IMG/VR virus record: IMGVR_UViG_3300045741_000038
Location: 1-23,712 of that record
Strand: one strand, 5' to 3'
From: a virus
Length of the DNA: 23,712 bases
The notes below the pieces were generated by a model. That model was not told the origin of the DNA, did no database searches, and worked only from the letters and a program-made list of their open reading frames with translations. The position numbers and the translations under genes were made by a program. Below, one piece after another: positions 3,202 through 22,488 of this stretch (within the stretch, counting starts at the first letter, position 1; each line of letters begins with the position of its first letter).

Positions 3202-4275
3202 TTAGTTGTCCCAGGTGATCGTCACTGTTCCGACGCGGGCTATCTGGTCGCTCGTGATGCTGGTATTCCCGCTCGGCGCCGTGAGGTTGCAATCGACTAC
3301 CCCCGAAACCTCCATGATGACCTGGATCAATTCGTTCCGTATCACATCCTCTCCGATGCTCAGGCCGTTGATGTACGTCGTTACATTCTGTGCGACCGTG
3401 AAAGAAATGTAGTCTTTGTCGATGATGCCATCCGTTGTGATGGAGACAGTCACAGCCACCGTAACCTTTGTAGCTGCGAGAACACGGGCATGAATCCCCC
3501 CTCCCCGCAGCCCAGGATTTTCCTGGCTGCCGTCTCCATCCACCACCGCCTGGACTTGATCGCGGAGGGCCGCGCTCGCGGTTCCGCTTCCGTCGTCTAT
3601 GTAGACGGTCATGTTGTAGTCCGAGACGGGCGGGAAGTGCTCGACGATATCTGTGCTTGCCACGCCGGGGACCTTCCGGACCCCGGACTTGATTCCGCCC
3701 AGGTTCGATTTCGCCAGACCGATGATGTATTCGGCGAACCGCCGCAGGTAGTCCGTCTCTGTCTCCTGGGCCGCTCCGTTGACGATGGCGGCTGGATTAT
3801 TCACCGTGTCTACCCCTGTCGGGGTCACGATAACGCTCACGCTGCCCGGTGGGACGTTGAAGGCATCACCCTTGTCGTTGGCGAGCACCGATATGGGATC
3901 GGATGCGGTATTCCCCATGAGGATGATGCCGTCCTCCTGAGTCGTATACAGGAGCCCGGATCCGGTCGAAACGACTGTCCCCGCAGGAATGGGACGGTCC
4001 GCTGGGGCGGCAACGTTCACTCCGAACACCACGTCACCACCGGCCGTCTGCGCCTCCTGCCTTTGGAAGTTGAAGGTGTACCCCGGTATCTGCTTGTGGT
4101 ATGTCTCGTAGGCCACCAGTGTCCGAATATAGAATTGGACAAGCTCCCTTCCGAACGCCTCCAGCTTCGTCGTGAGCACGGAGCCTTCGTTGTAATCGCT
4201 GACCTTATCGCTGTTGGCGATAATCCAGTTTTTCATGTCGGAAACGATGTCGTCGTACTCTTTGAACGCCAGCAT
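3202..4275 (-). CDS. Baseplate wedge protein J-like
   Basis: A 357-aa protein of the baseplate J/gp47 type, a wedge component of contractile tails. Recognisable features are the N-terminal helical region with SVLTTKLEAFGRELVQFYI, the central PIPAGTVVSTGSGLLYTT segment with a following GxxxNVPPGSV loop, the ETETDYLRRFAEYI motif, and the DDGSGTAS then LRDQVQAVVDG segment. These run in the order normal for the family. The start codon overlaps the upstream stop as TAATG, and GGAGG lies eight bases before it. It sits between the gp25-like gene and tail protein I, the standard W-J-I order. Confidence 0.9.
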   Translation of the reverse strand: MLAFKEYDDIVSDMKNWIIANSDKVSDYNEGSVLTTKLEAFGRELVQFYIRTLVAYETYHKQIPGYTFNFQRQEAQTAGGDVVFGVNVAAPADRPIPAGTVVSTGSGLLYTTQEDGIILMGNTASDPISVLANDKGDAFNVPPGSVSVIVTPTGVDTVNNPAAIVNGAAQETETDYLRRFAEYIIGLAKSNLGGIKSGVRKVPGVASTDIVEHFPPVSDYNMTVYIDDGSGTASAALRDQVQAVVDGDGSQENPGLRGGGIHARVLAATKVTVAVTVSITTDGIIDKDYISFTVAQNVTTYINGLSIGEDVIRNELIQVIMEVSGVVDCNLTAPSGNTSITSDQIARVGTVTITWDN

Positions 4276-6074
4276 TAGAATGGCCTCCGCAGCGTGATCG
4301 AAGTTCCGCTGATTGGTGTTATCGTGAGCATGATGTAAACCGCAGAATCCTTCGCCTCCAGAAGTACAGCATCGACGCTCTTGACCCTCGGCTCTTGCAT
4401 GAGCGTATCCACGATGTTAGTTATCATGTACGACACCGCCGCACTCTTTCCCATGGCGCTGCCGATTCCCCCGGCGATTCCGTAGGCCGTGAGCCTGATA
4501 CGCTCGCCAAGTTGTGAGGCAAGGCGCAGGTTCAAAGCCTGGAGAAGATTGTCGGTGCCGGAGATCGTGGCATAGTCACCATTCTCTCCGAGAACGGCTT
4601 GTCCGCTCTCCCCTATGGCAATATCGACCCCGAACGCGGTCGGCGTGTCCGAATAGATTTGATTGCGCGAGGGCTGGGAAGTCCTTGGCGTGAGGATGGG
4701 AATGAGTACGGATGCCCCGGCGGTCAACTCCGCATCGACCACAATACCGTTGAGCAATCCAACGAGCGAGGCGAGCGCGGGATTCCCCAGGTACTTGCCC
4801 GCGATGATCTCCAGCGTTTGACCATTCGTTGCCGTAATGACCGAGAACCCGTATATGTCGATCTGCTCCGGAGAGAACGGAGAGCCGAGCATGTTGTCGG
4901 GGATGCTTGCCGCTCCTGGGCTTGCTATGGACGAACTCCTGTCCATAAGGGATGCGGTGAGCCCCTGGCTCGCGTTCATCATTACCGTCAGCTTCGCGTC
5001 CGCCTGGGGTGCCTTCCCTGGTACGCAAAGCTCCGCAGCCACCTGGGAGACGGCAAGAGCCATGCTGTAGGCTTCGGTATAGGCTTCGCTGATGTTCTCA
5101 CCCTCGAACTTGAGGGCGTCCGGGGTATCGCGGATCAGCACCAGATACTCGCGCGCCGTCCGCAGCATTTGCTTTGCGAGCCCCGCCGGGTAGTAGACCA
5201 ACGTTTGCCCGAGTCGCCATGCCGCTCCCAGGGTGCTGGGAATGACCCCCGCCGCATCGGCCAGGATTCCATTCGCCCGGTTGATGACTTCCGTCACCTT
5301 CGTATTGAACTCAGTTATGTTGTCCCTAAGCTCGTCAGCTTTTTCCAGGATAGCCCGGGCCTTCCCAGCTACGTCGTTGACTTGAGAGAAGAAGGTCCGG
5401 AGCGACGCGACGCCATTTGTAGCCGCACCCGCCAAAGCAAGAATCTCTGTTCCCTTCTTCGCTTGCGTCGGTTTCTTTACCGCCTCCCGGTTCACGCCGA
5501 GTATTTCGAGGATGAGAAGGTCGATGGAGTAGGTATAGAACAGCGGTCGGTCCTTGTTTCTCTGCACCTGGAAATCGGTGAGCGACACGACGTAGCCGTC
5601 TATGAATCCGTTGACACTCCCGTTGCTCACAATCGAACCCGCATCGACGCTCGAAAGATCGTAAACGCGAAGCTCCATCTTGTTGTAGTCCGGGGTGTAC
5701 TGTTCCTTGTACCGAGCGAGATGGTCCCGGAGGAAGTAGGCCGCCTGTTTGCCGTCCATCTGCCTTGCCCTGCCGGACGGAAGGATCATGTCTTTCACGT
5801 CGGAGTTTCCCGTGTTCCCCGCTATCGTGATACGGCCGTTATCCATCCCGTAATCGTCCTCGAACATTCCCGCGAACGTCTTTGTCCGCACGATGCGCTG
5901 GGGGAAGGTGAAGCTGATGGAGTCCGGCGGGATGATGAGGGCGAATGATTCCACGGGATCGCCAGCAGCTTCCCTGTTCACGATCTCGAAGAGAATGGAG
6001 CGTTGCGAGAGCGCGGGTCCGCTTGCCACTTTCTTGTTGCGCTGCCTTAGAAGGGTCTGGTCGCTCAGTACCAT
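4275..6074 (-). CDS. Baseplate protein: LysM-like region fused to gp25/gpW-like domain
   Basis: A 599-aa protein with at least three parts. Residues 1-200 hold a beta-rich N-terminal domain with GMFEDDYGMDNGRITIAGNTG-like chemistry (residues 69-90) found in phage LysM/baseplate (gp53-type) proteins. Residues 230-275 look like a coiled coil. Residues 407-462 form a LysM-like unit (FSVITATNGQTLEIIAGKYLG, then LTAGASVLIPIL). Residues 475-599 resemble gp25/gpW of the baseplate wedge (NLLQALNLRLASQLGERIRL, YGI, later LEAKDSAVYIMLTI). Normally gp25 is a separate ~110-130-aa protein placed just before J, exactly where this C-terminus lies. SD GGGAG is about seven bases before ATG. It probably bridges spike/hub and wedge. 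The fusion is read directly; domain names are by recognition. Confidence 0.75.
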   Translation of the reverse strand: MVLSDQTLLRQRNKKVASGPALSQRSILFEIVNREAAGDPVESFALIIPPDSISFTFPQRIVRTKTFAGMFEDDYGMDNGRITIAGNTGNSDVKDMILPSGRARQMDGKQAAYFLRDHLARYKEQYTPDYNKMELRVYDLSSVDAGSIVSNGSVNGFIDGYVVSLTDFQVQRNKDRPLFYTYSIDLLILEILGVNREAVKKPTQAKKGTEILALAGAATNGVASLRTFFSQVNDVAGKARAILEKADELRDNITEFNTKVTEVINRANGILADAAGVIPSTLGAAWRLGQTLVYYPAGLAKQMLRTAREYLVLIRDTPDALKFEGENISEAYTEAYSMALAVSQVAAELCVPGKAPQADAKLTVMMNASQGLTASLMDRSSSIASPGAASIPDNMLGSPFSPEQIDIYGFSVITATNGQTLEIIAGKYLGNPALASLVGLLNGIVVDAELTAGASVLIPILTPRTSQPSRNQIYSDTPTAFGVDIAIGESGQAVLGENGDYATISGTDNLLQALNLRLASQLGERIRLTAYGIAGGIGSAMGKSAAVSYMITNIVDTLMQEPRVKSVDAVLLEAKDSAVYIMLTITPISGTSITLRRPF

Positions 6075-8566: not shown

Positions 8567-10683
8567 TTGGCCGTGCCCGCCGCGTCACCCTGGCCGTCCA
8601 TATTGAGGTTGATGACAAGCTCCTTGTTCGCCACCATCCAGCGACGAAGCTCAACGATGAGATCGGCAAGGTCCCCCTCCACCAGCCTTGCCCCGCCCGC
8701 GCTGGTCGGAGACGTTCCCTTTGCATACAGCGCGCTCATGGCCGATGCCCGTCCCCCGGGCTTCACGTTGGAGAGCATGTTGAGGATTTCGATATCAGAA
8801 GCAATGTCCCCGTTGTCCATGCCGAGGAACGTCCCCACGGGTCCCGTGAGCCCAAGAGAGTCTACCTTCACGTCACGGATGGCCCGGTCGATGGTCTGTA
8901 TCATGCCGAGGCTAAAATCCTTCCTCCTGAAAGCGTCGGAGAGCTTATACGCCATCCCCTTGCCCTGAAATGCCTTTAGCTCCGCTGGGCTCATTGAGGC
9001 AAGGCCGGTCGTCATGGCTGCGGCTGCCGATCCCATGGCAGGGTCGGTGTAGCCCTGGCCGAGCCCCGTTGACATGGCCCTCCCCAGGTAGTCCTCGACT
9101 ATCGGAAGTGTTGATCCCCGGAGATTCTTGGCTGCCTGGGCTTGCACGTCGGCGTATTGGTCGGCATACATCTTGTTCCGGATCCCGGGCAGATCGACTT
9201 TCAGCCCCTTCGCCAGAAGCTCGATCACTGTTCCCAGCCCCGTCTCGATTGCAGCCTTCGCGCCGGTGAGCCCGCTGCCGATTTCCCGGATCCTCTCTCG
9301 TATATCCTCCTGGATCGTGAGCAGCTTGACCTCCGGCGTATCCTGGACATTCGGCGCCGTCAACTCTTTCACGGCAGCCTCGGAATTGAGAATGTTCAAC
9401 CTTTCGGCGGTCGTGTAGTTCACACCGAACGTCTGCCGCAGCATTTCAATCCGGCTTGCCTCGTCCTTGCCAGCGTAGCTCCTGATTTTGTCGCGGATGG
9501 CCGTGAACATTTCCTTGTCGATGGTCTGTTCCATCCGCTTCATTACGTCGATGTAGTTCCCGCCCTTCGTCAAGGACTGCGCGGCCTGGAACATGATAAC
9601 GTCGGTATCCTTCGAGAGCGCCGTTGCACCGGCCACCGATTGCGTAAGCTGATTGATGAACTGCGCCCCGCGCGCCCCCTGGTACAGCGGCCCAAGCTGG
9701 GCTATCCAGTTTTGCGTCTCGCTGACCTTCGTGAATCCGGCGGTGACTCCCCTCTCCATCCCCGCCTCGACGATTTGCACCATTGCCTGGAGGTATTCGT
9801 TCGTCCGGCCCGTTCCCATTCCCGTGGCCTGGGCTCCGCCCGCCGCGAGCGCCAGCGGATTCCCGCCGAGCCCGAACAGTTGACCCATGCCGAGCGCGCG
9901 AGACCCCAAGGCCATGTCTACGTTCATGCCGCGCGTGTAGCCGAATAGATTCCGGCTCATGGCGTCTACGTCGCTCGGCTTCCCTCCAGCCTGGATGAGC
10001 CCCTTGAATACGAGGTTGCCCTCCTTGAGCGTGTAGCCGAACTCGGCCGCGCTCTGACTGGCCCGGCTCATGGACTCTTTGAACAGGAGACTGTTTTCCG
10101 CCGCGCTCTTTCCCAGGCCCCCGAGAGCCGCCGCGACGCTCATGCTATCCTGCATGACCGCCTCGTACTGTTCGGAGAGCTTGTTCAGGACCATGGCGGA
10201 TCCGGCGACGACCGCCGTGATTGCGCCCGCCACCTTTGCCGCCGCTGGCATGGACTGGAGAAAGCCCGCCGCCGTGTCGGTTGCACCGATGGCGGCTCCC
10301 GCGATATCGCCTGTACGCCCCAGGTTGGCGAACGTGGACCCGAGCCCCCGCAGGAGCTTGTTCGATTCGGCCAGGAAGTTGGTCTGCTGCCGCCTGGACT
10401 CTTTCTCCTCGTTCGTCTCCTGCTTTGGCCGGTCGTGGACGGCTGCCGGGCCCCCCTTTGGACCGCCCCCTGCGCCGCGCGCCTTCTCCAGCCCAGCGCC
10501 GATTTCCTTTATGTCCTGATTCAGCTTGTTGTACTGTTCCTGCAAGTCCTCGATGCCGAGAGCCTTCTTGGCCTCGCCAGCCTTGCGGATCACTTGATCC
10601 AGGGCCGACGTTGACTTTTGAGCGACCTGGGACAGATTCTCTGTCGCGTCTATGCGGACGCCGAGGTTAGCTTGATCGGACAT
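8563..10683 (-). CDS. Tail tape measure protein
   Basis: A 706-aa, Ala/Gly/Met-rich protein just after the tail chaperones and before the hub, the fixed place of the tape measure. Residues 42-70 are a charged coiled-coil stretch, 71-100 a Gly/Pro/charged linker, and about 147-167 a hydrophobic Ala/Val segment (AKVAGAITAVVAGSAMVL) that may enter the membrane during ejection. The rest is mainly helical. At roughly 0.15 nm per residue it predicts a tail of about 106 nm. No lytic domain is evident. The gene overlaps the preceding chaperone ORF by 17 bases. Confidence 0.88.
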   Translation of the reverse strand: MSDQANLGVRIDATENLSQVAQKSTSALDQVIRKAGEAKKALGIEDLQEQYNKLNQDIKEIGAGLEKARGAGGGPKGGPAAVHDRPKQETNEEKESRRQQTNFLAESNKLLRGLGSTFANLGRTGDIAGAAIGATDTAAGFLQSMPAAAKVAGAITAVVAGSAMVLNKLSEQYEAVMQDSMSVAAALGGLGKSAAENSLLFKESMSRASQSAAEFGYTLKEGNLVFKGLIQAGGKPSDVDAMSRNLFGYTRGMNVDMALGSRALGMGQLFGLGGNPLALAAGGAQATGMGTGRTNEYLQAMVQIVEAGMERGVTAGFTKVSETQNWIAQLGPLYQGARGAQFINQLTQSVAGATALSKDTDVIMFQAAQSLTKGGNYIDVMKRMEQTIDKEMFTAIRDKIRSYAGKDEASRIEMLRQTFGVNYTTAERLNILNSEAAVKELTAPNVQDTPEVKLLTIQEDIRERIREIGSGLTGAKAAIETGLGTVIELLAKGLKVDLPGIRNKMYADQYADVQAQAAKNLRGSTLPIVEDYLGRAMSTGLGQGYTDPAMGSAAAAMTTGLASMSPAELKAFQGKGMAYKLSDAFRRKDFSLGMIQTIDRAIRDVKVDSLGLTGPVGTFLGMDNGDIASDIEILNMLSNVKPGGRASAMSALYAKGTSPTSAGGARLVEGDLADLIVELRRWMVANKELVINLNMDGQGDAAGTAK

Positions 10684-11005
10684 CCGCTACCGCCTCGATG
10701 ATCTCGTTGATCTCGTCCTCGCTGTACCCCATGTCCTCGAACTCCTCTTTCGGCATCTCGGCCTCGGCGTCGTCCCGTTCTTTCTCGCGGCGCCTCTCCC
10801 GCAGGAACTCGTCACGGACTTCCTCCGGGGTTGCCTGGACCATGTAGGAGAGGTATAGAAGCTCACACTGTTCTTGCGTGAGCTTTAGGTACGACTCCTC
10901 GGTCGGCAGCTTCCGGAAGTGTTCAAGCGTCCACAGACGAATCCTTGTCCGTTCGCTCAGTCCCTCCAGCGTCTGCTCGGTAACTGATGGATTTGCCTGT
11001 GTCAC
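10667..11005 (-). CDS. Tail assembly chaperone, downstream (T-like) frame
   Basis: A 112-codon acidic ORF overlapping the upstream chaperone by 83 bases in the +1 frame and overlapping the tape measure start. The only start-like codon is GTG at 11005, with no good ribosome site before it (just GGA ten bases away). That GTG follows immediately after the TTT TTT C tract of the upstream gene, so the ORF is most simply read as the C-terminal extension of a G-GT fusion produced by frameshifting. It is rich in Glu/Arg helices (FLRERRREKERDDAEAEM). The fusion would be about 225 aa. Chaperones of this type coat the tape measure and recruit tube protein. Confidence 0.75.
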   Translation of the reverse strand: MTQANPSVTEQTLEGLSERTRIRLWTLEHFRKLPTEESYLKLTQEQCELLYLSYMVQATPEEVRDEFLRERRREKERDDAEAEMPKEEFEDMGYSEDEINEIIEAVADVRSS

Positions 11006-11345
11006 GAAAAAAGTCCAGGTATCTCCCGTAGAGATGCGACGTGAACGCGGTGTCAGGATAGTTTTCGGCTGCCCCGAGCTTCATCCACCATTCGGGCGCG
11101 TCGGTTACAACCACGTCCAGGGTCGCGTTCATCCGCATCATAAAGAGCGCCGTGTCGTCGAACTGCGCTATCGTATGACCGGCGCCGAGCATGTCGGCCA
11201 CACGAAGGTCGATCTGACGGCGCTCGAAGGGCGTCGGGTATTTCACCGTGAACGCACCGCGCTCCGTTTTGAAAACGGTCGAGAGGGTTTCCCCTTTCAG
11301 GACCCTCTCGACCAGCTTGTCCGATTCCGTGTTCTGCTTTGCCAT
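10923..11345 (-). CDS. Tail assembly chaperone, upstream (G-like) frame
   Basis: A 140-aa protein between tail tube and tape measure. Two ATG codons compete: the first, at 11351, is only one base from AAGGAGG, while the second, at 11345, has seven bases of spacing, so the second is chosen. The sequence includes RQIDLRVADML and a mixed helical pattern typical of lambda gpG-type chaperones. The last 27 residues (RDTGKSISYR onward) are only in the unshifted product. Identity is from position, size and the overlapping second frame; it shares no strong motif. Confidence 0.75.
   Translation of the reverse strand: MAKQNTESDKLVERVLKGETLSTVFKTERGAFTVKYPTPFERRQIDLRVADMLGAGHTIAQFDDTALFMMRMNATLDVVVTDAPEWWMKLGAAENYPDTAFTSHLYGRYLDFFRDTGKSISYRADAGGTERTDKDSSVDA
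11003..11013 (-). promoter_or_regulatory. Candidate programmed ribosomal frameshift site in tail chaperone gene
   Basis: On the coding strand the sequence reads GAC TTT TTT CGT GAC in the G frame. Shifting +1 at the second TTT (re-pairing to TTC) leads into GTG ACA CAG and the downstream ORF; a -2 slip on the six T run gives the same frame with one extra Phe. A -1 slip would read TCG TGA and stop at once, so the usual lambda-type direction is excluded. TTT CGT is the same core as the influenza PA-X +1 site. Confidence 0.6.
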
Positions 11346-11352
11346 GACCATG

Positions 11353-11871: not shown

Positions 11872-11878
11872 CCTCCTT
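11872..11878 (-). promoter_or_regulatory. Strong ribosome binding site for tail tube TTG start
   Basis: Coding-strand AAGGAGG, partly overlapping the TAA stop of the sheath gene (11878-11880) and six bases before the TTG at 11865. This is the main evidence that TTG initiates the tube. Confidence 0.75.
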
Positions 11879-13617
11879 TACGCCGCTGCCGCGAACGTGC
11901 TGGCGAACACGCCCATGTTCTGCACGATGAACGCGAAGTTGAACGGCGCCACGAGGTTGCAGGAGTATTCGATCCTCACCGTATCCCCGTTCACACTCTT
12001 CACGTACCCCCAATACACGCGGTTGCCGTGATTCTGGTCCGCGACCACCAGCCCCATGTCCTTATAGAGCGCCATCTTCCCCGCGAAAACAGCATCCACG
12101 AAGCCAAGGAGATCGAGCGTGAGAGCCCGTCCGATGAACACGTTCTCGATGGCGCTGCGGAGATCGCGCGCCATGAACAGCGCCTCGCGCATCATCGAGA
12201 ACTCGCACTTGGCAAGCTCGCTCCCCTGGTAGGTGTTGATCGAGCGCGCCGTGACGAACGATCCATCCTTCTTGCGCTTTCCGACACACCCGCCCAGCGC
12301 GATACACGACTCGATTTCGGACTGCGTGAGCGTCTTTTCCCATCCGAAATGCGAAAGCTGCTTGTTCGTCAGCGGCTCGTTCGGAGCCACGGCGATTGCC
12401 TGTCCCAGCAGCCGCGCGGCGTAGTACGCTGGGCTCCAGGTCTTTGTCTTTGTGGGATCGTTGAAATCGGAGAATACGAACCCGGGGTACGCGCACATGC
12501 CCGCCGTACTATTGAGCGTGACACACCGCGTCTGGAACGCGCTCACGGACTCGCCAGCAGCCCCGCCGACAATGAACTGGCGCTCGCTCTTCCCGGTGCG
12601 GCTGTTCATCTTCTCGCAATGCGACTTGACCAGGAGATGGAACGCAGCGTCCTCGGAAGAGGTCCCGACAAGCTGGACGTTTTCCTGTTCGAGCAGGGTA
12701 AGCGCCGCCGTCATTTCCGAGCTTGTGTATGCACCGTCCGTACCCCCCGTGAGGTAGGTGTAGGTCGCATAGTTGTCGGGGATTGCCCGGCTCGCGGCTC
12801 CCGTATTGAACAGCGCGCTCCCGATCCACGGCATCGAGGCAAAGGCGTCGATGATGGCCTGGAGCGTAGACTTGAACGTGGCCGTCGTCGCCTTGATGAC
12901 AACCGAGCCGCCAACGTCAAGCTCTGTGCTCTTGGACGATCCCGTTCCGAGGAGCGTCGCCACATAGTTGGCCTGATCGTTGATGTAGTTCACAACGTCG
13001 TCCAGGGTCGGGAAGCTGGCAAAGGGCACAGAGAGCCCGCCGCCGCCGTCGATGCTGGTGGTGAGGTCCGTCTTGGAAATGCTGCATGTCGCCGTGGTGC
13101 AGGTCCCGTTGTAGCGGACGGTGATGCTGGGGCGGTCGATATCGTCCAGGACGATTGGCGTGTTGGCCTGGAAGCCCATGGTGAGCTTCTTGCCAGCGTT
13201 TGTCCCCGGCTCCAGCTTGAACTTCACCTGATTGCCATGGAGCCCATTGTCCCATGCCGTCAGAAGGATCAGGTTGATTGCCCCGGTATTCCCCTGGACG
13301 GTGAACCCGGCCTTGAGCCCTGGATTCACGCGCCATGCGGCAACGGCTTGCGGCCGTAGATCGTTGCCAGGATCGAAGGCATGAATGACGGCATCCAGGA
13401 GCGGCCCCGAGCGCAGCGTGTCGCGCGCCTGGGTGTCGCTGGTGAACCAGAGCAGCGTATTCGGCAACCCGCCACGGCTGTCACCGAGAATGACGCCCCG
13501 GTTGATGCTGACTGCCCCGCCCGCGCCCTGGAGGAAGTTCAGATCGGAGAACGCCCCCGGGTCGAGGTGCTGGGACGCTTTCCCGTTCGCCAGGAAAATC
13601 TGCGGTTTTACTCCCAT
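11878..13617 (-). CDS. Tail sheath protein
   Basis: A 579-aa protein of the contractile tail sheath family. Typical signs are an N-terminal GAFSDLNF/SINRGVILGDSRGG region, a middle with TYLTGGTDGAYTSSEM and then LLEQENVQLVGTSSED, KSERQFIVGGAAGES, and a C-terminal section with RSINTYQGSELAKCEF, AIENVFIGRALTLDLL and VRIEYSCNLVAPFNFAFIV. The order of these blocks matches known sheaths, and the length is in the normal range of about 400-650 aa. The C-terminus ends in a short Ala run. SD AAGGAG is eight bases upstream of ATG. It assembles around the tube and contracts during infection. Confidence 0.92.
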   Translation of the reverse strand: MGVKPQIFLANGKASQHLDPGAFSDLNFLQGAGGAVSINRGVILGDSRGGLPNTLLWFTSDTQARDTLRSGPLLDAVIHAFDPGNDLRPQAVAAWRVNPGLKAGFTVQGNTGAINLILLTAWDNGLHGNQVKFKLEPGTNAGKKLTMGFQANTPIVLDDIDRPSITVRYNGTCTTATCSISKTDLTTSIDGGGGLSVPFASFPTLDDVVNYINDQANYVATLLGTGSSKSTELDVGGSVVIKATTATFKSTLQAIIDAFASMPWIGSALFNTGAASRAIPDNYATYTYLTGGTDGAYTSSEMTAALTLLEQENVQLVGTSSEDAAFHLLVKSHCEKMNSRTGKSERQFIVGGAAGESVSAFQTRCVTLNSTAGMCAYPGFVFSDFNDPTKTKTWSPAYYAARLLGQAIAVAPNEPLTNKQLSHFGWEKTLTQSEIESCIALGGCVGKRKKDGSFVTARSINTYQGSELAKCEFSMMREALFMARDLRSAIENVFIGRALTLDLLGFVDAVFAGKMALYKDMGLVVADQNHGNRVYWGYVKSVNGDTVRIEYSCNLVAPFNFAFIVQNMGVFASTFAAAA

Positions 13618-16617: not shown

Positions 16618-17222
16618 TCCTCATCCTCCGCAGGTTGGATTTCGGAGTAGAGCACAGGCCGCGTCTCCTCCCCGATCTTGACTTCCGGGTAGCCCTTCGC
16701 CGTGAATCCCGTCACGGTCCCCCGCTCCCCGTCTACGGTGACAGAGGACCCGCGCTTTATGCGGATCATGGCGCGCTTTCGATTGTTCAACTGTTGCGTT
16801 AGTTGCGTCGTCTTTTCGTCGTACTCCTTCTGGTAGGCTTTCGCATTGCCGGGCTCACTCTGAATCTTCATCATGTAGTACAGAGTGTCATAGTCGATCT
16901 TGAGGTCCAATTCCTTCGTATCCTGGTCGAAGCCATAGTCGGCATACTTGGCTTCCATCTTGTCCGCGAGCCCCGCATCGACCCCGCGCATGATCTCCAG
17001 GAGAGGCTTTATCTGGTGCTCGCGCTGGGCCTCTTCGATGGCGAAAAGGTAGTCCTCCCCGCCGCTGCCTTCGTCGTCACCGAACAGCTTTTCCTGGCCT
17101 TGCTCATCCTGGGAAACCCAGCGCGTCACCGTCTTTCCGGTGCGATCCTGCTTCTTGACCGGCACCAGCTTGGAGTAGTTTCGTGGCTTCACGGCCTTGT
17201 CCAGTCGCAGCGTGAGAATCAT
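16614..17222 (-). CDS. Unknown neck-module protein with SH3/KOW-like C-terminus
   Basis: A 202-aa protein joined by ATGA overlaps on both sides. Residues 40-60 are acidic and Gly-rich (LFGDDEGSGGEDY). Residues 60-155 are helical and charged. The C-terminal 50 residues (KRGSSVTVDGERGTVTGF, then YPEVKIGEETRPVLYSEI) have the strand-turn look of a KOW/SH3-like barrel. I do not recognise the whole protein. Location between connector and neck genes suggests a structural or assembly role. Confidence 0.6.
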   Translation of the reverse strand: MILTLRLDKAVKPRNYSKLVPVKKQDRTGKTVTRWVSQDEQGQEKLFGDDEGSGGEDYLFAIEEAQREHQIKPLLEIMRGVDAGLADKMEAKYADYGFDQDTKELDLKIDYDTLYYMMKIQSEPGNAKAYQKEYDEKTTQLTQQLNNRKRAMIRIKRGSSVTVDGERGTVTGFTAKGYPEVKIGEETRPVLYSEIQPAEDEE

Positions 17223-18760
17223 ATGTTCCCCATCTTCAAGCGGCCGAAGCGGAAACGGTTGTTTGTGAACCAGTCCTCCACGTCCTTCTCGTACTGCTTG
17301 ATGCGGGCGCCGTAGAGCACGGAGTTGTGTGCCACGAACCCGTTGCCGATGAAGTTTTCATTCCCCTTCACCGATATGTCGTACATCTCCGTGGCAACCC
17401 TTTCCACCTTCGAGACGATGCGCGCGTTGTGGATTGCGCCGTCATAGGACACCACGGCCATGTCCCCGACCCGGATCTCCTCCCCCGGCATGACCCTCTG
17501 CTCGCTCCCGCGCTGCACGTAGAGGCTATGATCCTCTGTGACGTGAATCTCGAATCCGTTTTCCGTGGTGACATAGTAGCACTTCTGGTTTTTTCGGACG
17601 TGGTGCTTCATTACGTCGAGCACTTCTTTCGGCTCGATGATCTGATTCTCAACGTCCAGGCTCAGGACCTTTTTCCCAATCCAGGTGTCCCGCTTGCGGA
17701 ACATTTCCCGTATCGTGATCCATTCCCCGTTGTGTTTGGCGATCCTGGTATCACCGGCCACCGATTGCCCGGAGTTGGTAGAGGAGAAAGATTCGCTCAC
17801 GCCATCCATGGACAAGGAGGCCGATGCGAGCCCGCCAAGCTGCGCGTCGGACACCATCTTGAGAATGTCCATGGTCGCCATCTTGCCGATGATCTCCCGT
17901 AGGTCGTCGTCCAGCCTTGCGGCGTCCGCGAGCCCCACCGTATAGTCGATGCGGTAGCCGTGCGGATAGCTGGGAAGCTGGAAACCTCCGATCACGGCAA
18001 AGATGTACGGGTTGGTCATGGACGTGGGCTGCCCCGCGCGCGGGTAGTAGTGAATCACGCCCTTCTGCTTGTCGAGACGAATCCAAGTAGAGAGGTCGAT
18101 GATCTTGCTCTCCACCTGGGAATAAAGCTCGAAACGCTCTACGGAGATCACCGGGCGGCGGCGCAGCGTTACCCACCCGAACTTGCCGAACTTGTCACGG
18201 CGGTACGGGTACGGAGCCTCCTCGATCTCATAGTCCGTTCCGAACACCTTGCCCGTGACTTCCGGGTGACAAGCGATTCGGCGCTGGAGGATTTGATAGC
18301 CCGTGCGCCTCTCGAACTCCAGCGTGGAGTGGTGGACGTGATCCGTGATCTGTTCATCGGTCCAGTAGGTCCCATCCCTGGCGCGGAGGTCGATGCCGAA
18401 GCAGAAGCTGTAGCGGATATCGTCCGCCGTGAATATCTCCCCGAACTGCCCCGTTGGCGGCTTGTAGTTGCCGAACGTGAACCCGATCTTGCCCGACGTT
18501 CCACCAGGGATCGGGTCGGACGATTCGCTCTCGACCGGGCCCGAAGGGTTGAAGTATGCGATCTTGTACCAGGAGCTTGAGACGCCCGTGGAGTCGGTAT
18601 AGTTGTAGATTTCCTGATTGGCGGTCATTACCGGCCGCGTCCCAGGCCCCGTGATCTCCGCGTAGACGCCATCGACATCGGGTGCCCTATAGACTTTCAA
18701 CTGCGAGAAGGTCGCCAGGATGGCAGCTATGTCGTCTACCTTTATCACGAGCGTGTTCAT
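17219..18760 (-). CDS. Head-tail connector protein interrupted by a mini-intein
   Basis: A 513-aa precursor. Residues 1-90 look like an Ig/FN3-like domain (YRAPDVDGVYAEI, WYKIAYF, PVESESSDPIPGG). Residues 100-332 and 480-513 form a connector-like protein (EIFTADDIRYSFCFG, TDEQITDHVHHSTLEFERRTGY, and GARIKQYEKDVEDWF). Between them residues 333-479 are an intein with all standard splicing blocks. After splicing the mature protein would be 366 aa with the junction STNSGQ-SVLYG. Gene starts at an ATGA overlap with the repeat fibre gene. The connector name is from position plus helical pattern; the intein is well supported. Confidence 0.7.
   Translation of the reverse strand: MNTLVIKVDDIAAILATFSQLKVYRAPDVDGVYAEITGPGTRPVMTANQEIYNYTDSTGVSSSWYKIAYFNPSGPVESESSDPIPGGTSGKIGFTFGNYKPPTGQFGEIFTADDIRYSFCFGIDLRARDGTYWTDEQITDHVHHSTLEFERRTGYQILQRRIACHPEVTGKVFGTDYEIEEAPYPYRRDKFGKFGWVTLRRRPVISVERFELYSQVESKIIDLSTWIRLDKQKGVIHYYPRAGQPTSMTNPYIFAVIGGFQLPSYPHGYRIDYTVGLADAARLDDDLREIIGKMATMDILKMVSDAQLGGLASASLSMDGVSESFSSTNSGQSVAGDTRIAKHNGEWITIREMFRKRDTWIGKKVLSLDVENQIIEPKEVLDVMKHHVRKNQKCYYVTTENGFEIHVTEDHSLYVQRGSEQRVMPGEEIRVGDMAVVSYDGAIHNARIVSKVERVATEMYDISVKGNENFIGNGFVAHNSVLYGARIKQYEKDVEDWFTNNRFRFGRLKMGNI
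17324..17764 (-). mobile_element. Mini-intein (147 aa, Ser1, no homing endonuclease)
   Basis: Residues 333-479 of the connector precursor. Block A is SVAGDTRI with Ser1 (codon TCG at 17762-17764) in place of the usual Cys. Block B is FEIHVTEDHSLYV, with the TxxH motif. Block F is MYDISVKGNENFIGNG. Block G is FVAHN followed by Ser+1 (TCC at 17321-17323). The 147-aa length leaves no room for a LAGLIDADG or HNH endonuclease. The catalytic Ser1, His of TEDH, penultimate His, final Asn and Ser+1 are all present, so splicing is expected. Confidence 0.88.
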
Positions 18761-21700
18761 TTCACCCTCTCAATCCTCGGCCTCGACGTTGAGGAGCCCG
18801 CTTTCGGCCTTCGCGTTGTACGCGAGGCGAGGTCGGTATCCGCCGAATCCGAGTACCCGTGCGGTCTAAGCCTGTCTGGACGTGATGCTACACTGGAAAT
18901 GCCACTCGTCTCAAGGAAGCCGCGCGGCCTGTAGTTGGTGACGATGTTGATGACGATGGAGACATGCGGCCAGCCGACAACCGCTTGGCTGCCAATCCCT
19001 ACCGCCCGAATGTTCACGGAGACGCCCGGGCGCCCCAGGGCCTGGACCGATCCAATCCCTACCGGAGACAGCGTGACGCTGACACCAGGAGAGCCGAACG
19101 ACGCCGCCGAGGCAATCCCGCCCGCACCAGAAATCTGCACGTAGGGGCGGACCGTAGGCTGCCCGAAAGCGGCTGCCGACGCCACCCCGCTCGGGTTGAT
19201 ATTGGCCTGGACCCGCTGGAGATCGCCGAACGTCTCTGCCGTGCCGATGCTGGACGGGGAGACCCGGGCCAAGATGCTTGCCGTGCCGAACGCCAGGGCC
19301 GAGCCAACGCCGACCGGTGACAGATTCACGGTGAGTCCAGGAGCGCCGAACACGGAAGCTGATGGTATGCCCGCCGTTACCGTAAGGTTGACGCTGATAG
19401 AAGGTCGCCCGAAGGTTTCCGCGCTGGCGATCCCTGCCGGATCCATCTCTACGCTTACACCCTGGAGGTCCGTCTTTCCACTTTCGTTACCGGGAACGCC
19501 TACCGCCTCTGCCGATGCGATTCCCGCCGGTCCTATCACGGCACGGACAACGGGCTCGGGTCCGAATGCTTCCTCCGATGCAATCCCGCCCGCAGCCGCG
19601 ATAGCGTGGAGGATGCCCCCTACAGTCGGAGCGCCGAAAGACTCAGAGGAGGCAAGTCCCACCGCGCTTATGTCTACGGTGAGCGCGGGTACGCCTATGG
19701 CTTCCGCCGACGCTATTCCAACGGGAGCAAGATTGATGACACCGGATATTACGATGGTCGGAACCCCAAAGGCTTCCGCCGATGCAATCCCTGTCGGACC
19801 TATGCTCGCCGAGAGCGACGGGCTTCCGAACGCTTCCGCGCTGGCTATACCGGTGGGAGCGAGCGTTGTTTGGAGGGAGGGAATACCAAAGGCTCCCGCC
19901 GACGCGATACCGGCAGGAGACAGCGTTGCCTGGATCGCCGGGGTCCCAATGGCTCCCGCCGAAGCAACACCGGTTGGCGCGAGCGTCGCCTGGGCCGCCG
20001 GGGTTCCAAACGCTTCCGCCGAAGCGATCCCTCCAGCGCCAGTAATGGATGCGGGGACAAGGACAGTGGGGACCCCGAAGGCTTCCCCGGATGCTATTCC
20101 CTTTCCGCCGGTAGGAGGGAGTAACGGGTACTTGCTGCTATCAAGAAGAACGGCAAGCTCATCATAGTACGTGGTGTAGGCGGTTGTCGCCATCTGCCCA
20201 TACATGAAGTAGCTGGTGCCAGCCTGTCCGAATGTTGTGAACGACCTTGATTTCAGAAGAGAGAGGTTTTCATCATATACGCTGAAAGCCGGGTCTACTC
20301 CTGCCGCGAACTCGACGGTGATCCAGTACCAATGGTTCGCGGTAATAGAGACATCATCGGACGTACCTCCGGTGATGAGTCCGCGTATCTTATATGCCGA
20401 GGTACCAGAATCGTATGTAGTGGCAATCTGAATGTATTTGGTCCCCGTGTCGTCGTACACGACAAGGATGTTATTACCGGCCGTGAGGGTCTGTGTCGGA
20501 GCCCAAAACCAGAAGCCCAAGGTGACGGGAGCGTTCCCCGTATTCTTCTGTACCAGGACTCTATCTTGCGTTGACCCTACCATCTTCCCCGATGCAGCCC
20601 CGGCCTTCGCCCTGTCGGTTGATGGTATGACCGGGCTCCCCAGCGGCGTGACCGTCCATCCGCTCATGGTGGCGAGAGTCGAGTCCTCGAAATCTTCGTA
20701 AAGGTCCAGCGACGGTGTAGTGAGGTCGATGGTGACAGATACGCCCGGGGCTCCGAGCGCCCCCGCGCTGGCTATCCCGGTAGGAGACAGAATCGCCTGG
20801 GCTGCCGGAACGCCGAGCGCCTCGGCCGACGCTATACCAGTGGGAGACAGTGTTGCCTGTGCGGAAGGAACGCCGAGCGCCCCAGCGGATGCTACGCCAG
20901 TCGGAGAGAGTGTTGCTTGGACTGCCGGGACGCCGAACGCCTCGGCGGATGGAATAGCTGACGGGGAAATCTGTTGGATGGGAATGACAGTCGGGACTCC
21001 GAACGCCTCGGCGGACGTGATCCCTTGCGATATGTACGGACCTATGGCAACCGAATCGACCTTGATATCGTCGAAGTCAACATGGTCCATAAACCCCACG
21101 GAAGCAGTAGGTATGTGCCCTACGTCTATCTCAGTTACTTGGAGATCGGGAGTGCTTGCCTGTGAGGAGACGAGCGTCCCATCTATCCAGAACTGTGACG
21201 TTCCGTTGCGGACATAGTTGATCTCTACGAGATACCATTTCCCTGGTATTAGGTCGGCAAGACCACCGCCAGCGAAGCCTACGCCGTTGGTCAGAGCCCA
21301 TTTGTTGTTTGACTGGACGCCTACATAAAAGAGCGCCCCACCATTAACCAATGAAACGAATTTCTCGTTTCCCGACGACGTGGTGGGAAACCTTATGTAG
21401 AATCTAAAAAAGAGATTGTTTGCTGCCGTGAAATACTTAGCGCCATAGGGATATGAAACGCTCGTCACGAATTGGTATCGGTAGCCGAAACCCTTATGGG
21501 CCGCTGCTGCCGCATCGAGCGCGAAGGTGCTTGGTCCGCCACCGCCAAGGGCGCTAAACTCCCAGGGCGAGCTTCCAGCGTTCTCTCCATCCATGAGAGC
21601 GATTCCCGGTGATTCGCCGTTGTCGGGCGCTATCACCACGCTTATGCTCGGTACTCCGAAGCTCTCCCGGGACGGGATGGCTCCGGCGTTGTGTATCCCC

Positions 21701-22488
21701 AGGTCGGTTGACTGGAACTGGAGAAGGGCCGCGATCCAGTTGCGTCCGTTGGTCAGTGTTTCGTTGGCGTGTTTCGCGCTCCCTGGAGGCGCAGCAAAAT
21801 GCTTGAAGAAGCCATCGAGTCCGAGAGGACCGGCGAATGTTCCATCCGGAGAGAGCGCCGCAATCTGGCGAGTGCCGGAGGTAGTGCCGCCCGATGGATC
21901 ATACTTGATACCGGCAACGTCTACCCCGGGATTGCTCTGCGCGGTGTCCGTCGTCTGTGCATCGTTGCCAAGCCCGACGTTCTCGGCATGTTCATAGAGA
22001 CCGCCGCGCATAGCCGGTATGTTCGACCGGAACTGACGGACCACTACCTCACGGTTTGTGGCAAGCGCGCCGCTGAGATGGAAGGTGAACGTGACGGTGC
22101 TGGCCGGTCCGGGACGCTCCAGGATGAACACGCCGAGCGAAAGCGTACCTTGTGTGTATCGCGCCTGGAGATTGAACGTGAGTCCTCCGCCGGAGAGCGT
22201 CGGCGTATAGCCCGTCTGCCCTTCCCATGCACAGAAGGCCACCAGGAGGTCGTCGCTGAGAATATCCAGGGTCGCAGAGCTTGTAGTGAGGTCCTGGCCC
22301 GCTGCGGCATTGATGCCGTAGGACGCTCCAATCTCGACGAACGGATTGAGGTTGGGTGTTCCGATTACCTCGGCAGAGGCTATCGCTACGGGACCGACTA
22401 CCGCCGATACACCGGGGGCGCCGAACGCCTCACCCGATGCAATGCCCGAAGGTTGGATTACATAGGGTGTGGCGAGTAGAAGGCTCAT
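18757..22488 (-). CDS. Large repeat-rich fibre or adhesin-like virion protein with LamG-like domains
   Basis: A 1243-aa protein. About 26 copies of a ~20-residue unit with consensus PxGIASAEAFGxPxVxVxL appear: two at residues 12-46, one near 268-288, five at 487-586 and about 18 at 795-1183. Between them lie a beta-rich domain (52-266), a LamG-like sandwich (295-485; FFRFYIRFPTTSSG, KWYLVEINYVRNG, FWIDGTLV, FDDIKVDS) and a second LamG-like sandwich (595-788; LGFWFWAPTQTL, HWYWITVEFAAG, YYDELAVLLD). The C-terminal 60 residues are Arg/Ser-rich. There is no signal peptide. It lies right before the connector gene, so a head- or neck-attached fibre binding glycans is an inference. A tail-attached fibre cannot be excluded. 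Confidence 0.8.
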   Translation of the reverse strand: MSLLLATPYVIQPSGIASGEAFGAPGVSAVVGPVAIASAEVIGTPNLNPFVEIGASYGINAAAGQDLTTSSATLDILSDDLLVAFCAWEGQTGYTPTLSGGGLTFNLQARYTQGTLSLGVFILERPGPASTVTFTFHLSGALATNREVVVRQFRSNIPAMRGGLYEHAENVGLGNDAQTTDTAQSNPGVDVAGIKYDPSGGTTSGTRQIAALSPDGTFAGPLGLDGFFKHFAAPPGSAKHANETLTNGRNWIAALLQFQSTDLGIHNAGAIPSRESFGVPSISVVIAPDNGESPGIALMDGENAGSSPWEFSALGGGGPSTFALDAAAAAHKGFGYRYQFVTSVSYPYGAKYFTAANNLFFRFYIRFPTTSSGNEKFVSLVNGGALFYVGVQSNNKWALTNGVGFAGGGLADLIPGKWYLVEINYVRNGTSQFWIDGTLVSSQASTPDLQVTEIDVGHIPTASVGFMDHVDFDDIKVDSVAIGPYISQGITSAEAFGVPTVIPIQQISPSAIPSAEAFGVPAVQATLSPTGVASAGALGVPSAQATLSPTGIASAEALGVPAAQAILSPTGIASAGALGAPGVSVTIDLTTPSLDLYEDFEDSTLATMSGWTVTPLGSPVIPSTDRAKAGAASGKMVGSTQDRVLVQKNTGNAPVTLGFWFWAPTQTLTAGNNILVVYDDTGTKYIQIATTYDSGTSAYKIRGLITGGTSDDVSITANHWYWITVEFAAGVDPAFSVYDENLSLLKSRSFTTFGQAGTSYFMYGQMATTAYTTYYDELAVLLDSSKYPLLPPTGGKGIASGEAFGVPTVLVPASITGAGGIASAEAFGTPAAQATLAPTGVASAGAIGTPAIQATLSPAGIASAGAFGIPSLQTTLAPTGIASAEAFGSPSLSASIGPTGIASAEAFGVPTIVISGVINLAPVGIASAEAIGVPALTVDISAVGLASSESFGAPTVGGILHAIAAAGGIASEEAFGPEPVVRAVIGPAGIASAEAVGVPGNESGKTDLQGVSVEMDPAGIASAETFGRPSISVNLTVTAGIPSASVFGAPGLTVNLSPVGVGSALAFGTASILARVSPSSIGTAETFGDLQRVQANINPSGVASAAAFGQPTVRPYVQISGAGGIASAASFGSPGVSVTLSPVGIGSVQALGRPGVSVNIRAVGIGSQAVVGWPHVSIVINIVTNYRPRGFLETSGISSVASRPDRLRPHGYSDSADTDLASRTTRRPKAGSSTSRPRIERVK
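18940..20106 (-). repeat. Main block of ~18 coding repeats, 20-residue unit
   Basis: Protein residues 795-1183 of the repeat fibre. The best-kept core is GIASAEAFG, followed by x-P and an alternating V-x-V-x-L strand. Unit lengths vary from 18 to about 30 residues, with insertions such as the one at residues 1000-1016. At the DNA level the units are diverged, so they are not a recent expansion. Towards the C-terminus the core drifts (GIGSVQALG, GIGSQAVVG). Confidence 0.85.
20731..21030 (-). repeat. Second block of five coding repeats between the two LamG-like domains
   Basis: Residues 487-586. Units 5-8 (AIPSAEAFGVP, GVASAGALGVP, GIASAEALGVP, GIASAGALGAP) are close to exact 20-residue spacing with near-identical linkers AQATLSPTG, the most regular part of the protein. 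Confidence 0.85.
22351..22455 (-). repeat. Two N-terminal coding repeats of the fibre protein
   Basis: Residues 12-46: PSGIASGEAFGAPGVSAVVG and PVAIASAEVIGTPNLNPFVE, both 20 residues. They place the repeat at the very start of the protein, ahead of the first beta-rich domain. Confidence 0.75.

Follow-up and report, generated by a model that had tools for sequence, protein, structure and literature searches.

The window analysed here, the whole 23,712-nucleotide stretch of a 23.7-kb virus record, is one metagenomic contig and probably represents a genome fragment; no close relative emerged when viral contigs were scanned with single proteins, namely the adaptor, the N-extein of the adaptor and the tail sheath. 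All window features described below lie on the minus strand, and their coordinates are window positions. A 513-aa open reading frame (17219–18760) comprises an N-extein (residues 1–332; 17765–18760), a 147-aa intein (residues 333–479; 17324–17764) and a C-extein of 34 residues, SVLYGARIKQYEKD...GNI, followed by the stop codon (17219–17323). The N-extein was assigned to the SPO1 gp6.3/phi812 adaptor family using a profile match to phrog_772 spanning residues 103–344 (E = 6.9e-32), a phmmer match of residues 185–344 to 8q01_b, the adaptor/neck protein of PDB 8q01 (E = 0.0021), and an alignment of 15 homologues; Dolphis, Jeremy, ST4 and 278BB001 carry relatives whose annotation is head-to-tail adaptor or connector. 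The C-extein was delimited by the gapless alignment of the spliced sequence with adaptors of Leptospira LE1, LbrZ and Bacteroides DAC19. In addition, four to five genes separate the adaptor gene from a tail sheath gene (11878–13617; phrog_279, E = 8.5e-56; tblastn to 169 phage records), an order that matches SPO1-like phages. Together, the phrog_772 and 8q01 matches, the annotated relatives and the gene order towards the sheath identify the encoded protein as the head-to-tail adaptor of the SPO1/phi812 type from a contractile phage, consistent with the neck gene named in the original prediction.

Other features of the window and of its annotation also merit comment. The PHROGs label of phrog_772, 'tail fiber protein', is shared by many phage records and is a mislabel for the neck adaptor. 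Directly upstream of the adaptor gene, a 1243-aa protein (18757–22488) contains many repeats of the GIASAEAFGVP type, which are similar to mycobacteriophage minor tail proteins. Two overlapping reading frames (10667–11351) precede a 706-aa reading frame; the first matches a tail assembly chaperone family, and programmed frameshifting may occur here.

The 147-aa insert matches four curated models above their cut-offs: Pfam Intein_splicing (PF14890; E = 7.4e-15) and Hint (E = 3e-7) exceed their gathering scores, and NCBI TIGR01445 (intein_Nterm; E = 1.4e-13) and TIGR01443 (intein_Cterm; E = 1.6e-8) pass the curated cut-off. Its boundaries coincide exactly with those of the complete Ser1/TEDH/VAHN/Ser+1 domain first proposed from the nucleotide sequence, and the match to Hint and intein profiles, the loss of which had been named as grounds for abandoning the proposal, is retained. 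Specifically, the intein begins with the nucleophile Ser1 (17762–17764) in motif N1 (SVAGDT), and continues through motif NX (Lys53-His54; 17603–17608), motif N3 or block B (VTEDH, with Thr76 and His79; 17528–17542), motif C2 or block F (YDISVKGNENF, with Asp129; 17351–17383) and motif C1 or block G (FVAHN, ending in His146 and Asn147; 17324–17338), which is followed by the second nucleophile, Ser+1 (Ser480; 17321–17323), as the first residue of the C-extein. The insert therefore displays the residues that define a class 1 intein, namely a nucleophile at position 1, TxxH in block B, a terminal HN and a nucleophile at +1. Motif NX, a His preceded by Lys or Arg, is specific to inteins with Ser1 and Ser or Thr at +1 (PMC10189870), and its presence together with Ser1 and Ser+1 places the insert among the cysteine-independent Ser1/Ser(Thr)+1 inteins; the only cysteine, Cys62, is non-catalytic. 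Pfam detected no homing endonuclease family in the reading frames scanned. GC3 is nearly equal in the intein (0.796) and the N-extein (0.807), and hence gives no compositional sign of recent transfer.

The AlphaFold2 model of the intein alone, built from an alignment of 21 inteins, has a pLDDT of 96.1 and a pTM of 0.88, and informs on the fold rather than on active-site geometry; the full 513-aa protein modelled without an alignment gave a pLDDT of 30. The closest matches of the intein model in the PDB, obtained with Foldseek and VIA-align, are nearly all inteins or Hint domains, including the NpuDnaB intein (Z = 22.1, rmsd 1.4, 136 residues aligned) and the Ser1 intein Aes123 PolB1 (9hth; Z = 19.4, rmsd 2.0, 30% identity over 142 residues). 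The intein is thus predicted to adopt the Hint fold.

Homologous adaptors provide the corresponding empty sites. The insert is absent from all 15 annotated phage adaptors aligned, as well as from 52 adaptor reading frames that lie beside related sheath genes on viral contigs and eight from bacterial genome contigs, several of these 60 being cut by contig ends or near-duplicates of one another. Removal of the intein restores a gapless alignment over the junction STNSGQ/SVLYGARI (the slash marks the splice point), with LE1 in register as TTQSAT/SSMYGARI. Over a longer stretch, the spliced sequence SESFSSTNSGQ/SVLYGARIKQYE aligns with HESVSTTQSAT/SSMYGARILELT of LE1, and the DAC19 adaptor reads SQSISSTSSAT/NAGYGARVLGYQ at the same junction. 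Both the position near the C-terminus and the junction STNSGQ-SVLYG were therefore anticipated correctly, and the finding that would have counted against the original proposal, homologous connectors that all retain the 147-aa region, did not materialise in this sample. The adaptor intein allele is known from this one contig only. A scan for intein pairs produced 199 pattern matches, none of them confirmed.

To place the intein among known lineages, we searched viral contigs with a DNA pattern in which the YGDTDS site of DNA polymerase B is followed by an intein start, fixing only the first residues. Usable polymerase-type inteins were obtained from 26 of the 29 contigs matched, and the intein of Campylobacter phage CC_R7 brought the set to 27. 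Ser1 occurs in all 27, in part by construction of the search, and all 27 carry the NX histidine, a position outside the search pattern. Ten are contiguous, 153–181 aa long and free of an endonuclease; in the others a stop occurs 115–131 residues after Ser1, as expected for split inteins, apart from one cut by a contig end. Although the absence of an endonuclease from the adaptor intein, as originally noted, is borne out by the domain search, it is not distinctive, since the ten contiguous polymerase inteins are also mini-inteins and the others are split. A profile HMM of the polymerase Ser1 inteins, from which the window sequence was left out, scored the adaptor intein at 53.7 bits compared with 9.3 for the K459 helicase intein and 4.9 for that of ME3, these two phage inteins being the only comparators outside the lineage. 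The best phage tblastn match of the adaptor intein is likewise a polymerase intein. Within this small comparison set, the two results indicate that the adaptor intein most resembles the PolB Ser1 lineage, and the nearest inteins we found, as judged by sequence similarity, are mini-inteins with Ser1 that interrupt phage DNA polymerase B at its YGDTDS site. The insertion site itself lies in the neck adaptor rather than at the YGDTDS motif, and the locus accordingly constitutes a new insertion allele and not a PolB allele.

These searches yielded further observations on phage inteins. Putative natural split Ser1 inteins occur on contigs L105, L106, L108, L109, L112, L113, L115–L119, L121, L125, L126, L128 and L131, so uncharacterised split polymerase inteins of this type form a sizeable set. 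The K459 helicase intein matches within positions 256–291 of the profile of phrog_15127, a head protein family, some members of which may carry an intein. A Cys1 intein of 153 aa lies within gp9 of Acinetobacter phage ME3 (L102:1132–2427), which is 431 aa long and carries the name 'RNA methyltransferase'; the gp9 gene adjoins a head-completion gene, and the name appears doubtful.

The insertion point can be related to the cryo-EM structure of the phi812 neck, in which a short loop made up of adaptor residues 265–272 lies at the chamber exit, and Met269 and Tyr270 are positioned against DNA in the neck channel (PMC12886913). These two residues correspond to M and Y in the phi812 segment TTQSAMYGG, and in a gapless stretch of the alignment the intein insertion maps exactly between them. 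As full-length extein identity is at most about 31% to any homologue (22% to phi812), the loop contacts are transferred to the window protein by inference. The loop is shorter in adaptors of the Pseudomonas/Bordetella-type clade, and is therefore not universally required. A ring of 12 unspliced adaptors would set twelve 147-aa (17-kDa) domains at the channel wall, just above a tube less than 3 nm wide. Since the insertion splits the DNA-contact loop and would bring 12 additional domains into the channel, the neck can probably be assembled only after splicing; on this structural analogy, a working ring would probably require spliced subunits.

Taken together, these results make it very likely that the insert is a class 1 mini-intein with Ser1 and Ser+1 that is competent for splicing, belongs to the PolB lineage, resides in a neck adaptor gene and probably excises itself before the neck ring forms. 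Removal would be autocatalytic and probably occurs soon after translation. Established intein chemistry leads to the expectation of a class 1 pathway that proceeds via oxygen esters. An N–O acyl shift at Gln332-Ser333, aided by intein residues His54, Thr76 and His79, would be followed by transesterification to Ser480; cyclisation of Asn479, aided by His478, would then release the intein, and an O–N shift would yield the ligated adaptor. The predicted products are an adaptor of 366 aa (332 + 34) and a free 147-aa intein. Catalysis, the order of these events and blockage of the channel by the precursor are what we infer from the features above.

The same location could instead suit an assembly checkpoint, in which splicing is conditional, precursor accumulates and a cue late in infection releases it, such that completion of the neck is gated. 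In favour of this reading, the intein occupies the DNA-contact loop of a channel protein that assembles as a 12-mer, and conditional inteins have precedents elsewhere. In addition, Ser1 is less nucleophilic than Cys1, and the half-lives measured in vitro for the split Ser1 PolB16 intein were in the range of tens of minutes (PMC10189870). However, we saw no regulatory motif or cue, related polymerase inteins have no link to assembly, and the intein is absent from all other adaptors examined; all observations are accounted for by a selfish element in a site that tolerates splicing, and we consider the checkpoint unlikely. If it did operate, only spliced, mature subunits would complete the neck, with excision timed or cue-dependent. 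The earlier proposal that assembly may be gated by splicing holds to the extent that sequence and structure argue for splicing before assembly, but the regulatory component is unsupported.

It is quite improbable that the insert is a degenerate Hint domain, which would cleave at its N- or C-terminus without ligation or persist as a decoration domain of the virion. Mini-inteins without homing can decay, and side-cleavage has been seen in the Ser1 PolB16 intein (PMC10189870), yet here all catalytic residues and the open frame are kept. Moreover, cleavage would cost the adaptor the conserved segment C-terminal to the insert, and twelve retained domains would be hard to accommodate in the channel loop. 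An artefact of assembly or sequencing, with an intein fragment joined to an adaptor gene, would fit the occurrence of the allele on a single contig with no second example. Such a chimera is nevertheless highly improbable given that each of the two junctions is exact, keeps the frame and has the form of a functional one, and given the nearly equal GC3 of intein and extein, and the absence of flanking polymerase sequence. The possibility that the insert is an ordinary extra domain of the adaptor family was rejected outright, as it is absent from the homologues examined and shows strong intein profile matches and an intein-like fold.

The self-excising adaptor intein that we favour extends the range of proteins in which phage inteins reside. 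Most reported phage inteins lie in nucleic-acid enzymes, according to a survey of mycobacteriophages (PMC5050341), and we found no report of an intein in a neck or head-tail adaptor among open-access papers. The emphasis of the original prediction on a structural target is justified in that such a target is unusual, but it is not unique, because portal proteins of mycobacteriophages also contain inteins (PMC5050341). Structural exteins are thus not unheard of, and it is the adaptor site that represents a new insertion allele. The occurrence of a polymerase-like Ser1 intein at this site supports movement of Ser1 inteins from polymerases into unrelated exteins. Since the intein interrupts a residue pair that touches the genome in a relative, the outcome of failed splicing can be predicted and observed, being either no neck or a plugged neck, and the adaptor intein offers a natural setting in which to ask if assembly requires prior splicing. 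As a small intein of the Ser1/Ser+1 type whose single cysteine is non-catalytic, it is also a candidate for protein engineering.

Comparison with known systems highlights which elements of the locus are shared. The adaptors of Staphylococcus phage 812 (PDB 8q01) and SPO1 (gp6.3) are homologous to the window exteins, and their genes lie at the equivalent place ahead of the sheath gene, but they lack an intein and share only 22–24% identity with the exteins. In Silviavirus phages (Staphylococcus phages Romulus and CIFT_MFB_MRSA16), the same adaptor gene is interrupted by a probable self-removing, intron-like insert, which differs from the window intein in containing internal stops, and hence not being in frame, and in lying tens of codons upstream of the window site, at ...YQIWG/NLIIGAG. 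These inserts follow ...KEIYQIWG at about 2560–2960 in Romulus (L007) and about 3560–5380 in CIFT_MFB_MRSA16 (L008). The latter holds a TnpB-like reading frame, which suggests an intron- or IStron-like element; Rfam gave no match to the Silviavirus insert at either threshold. The portal inteins of C1 mycobacteriophages (PORT; PMC5050341) also interrupt a component of the channel that carries DNA from head to tail, although the extein is the portal and the insertion site is another; this comparison covers the extein and the site. The closest correspondence is to the phage PolB Ser1 inteins (Aes123 PolB1, PolB16 OarG, CC_R7 and those of contigs L105–L132), which share with the adaptor intein Ser1 and Ser+1, a Lys/Arg-His motif NX, TxDH in block B, YDI in block F, a terminal HN and the lack of an endonuclease; the CC_R7 polymerase intein is 32–33% identical to it over 147 aa. 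Whereas these inteins reside in polymerases, measure 153–181 aa and in many cases are split, the window intein is contiguous, 147 aa long and housed in a neck adaptor.
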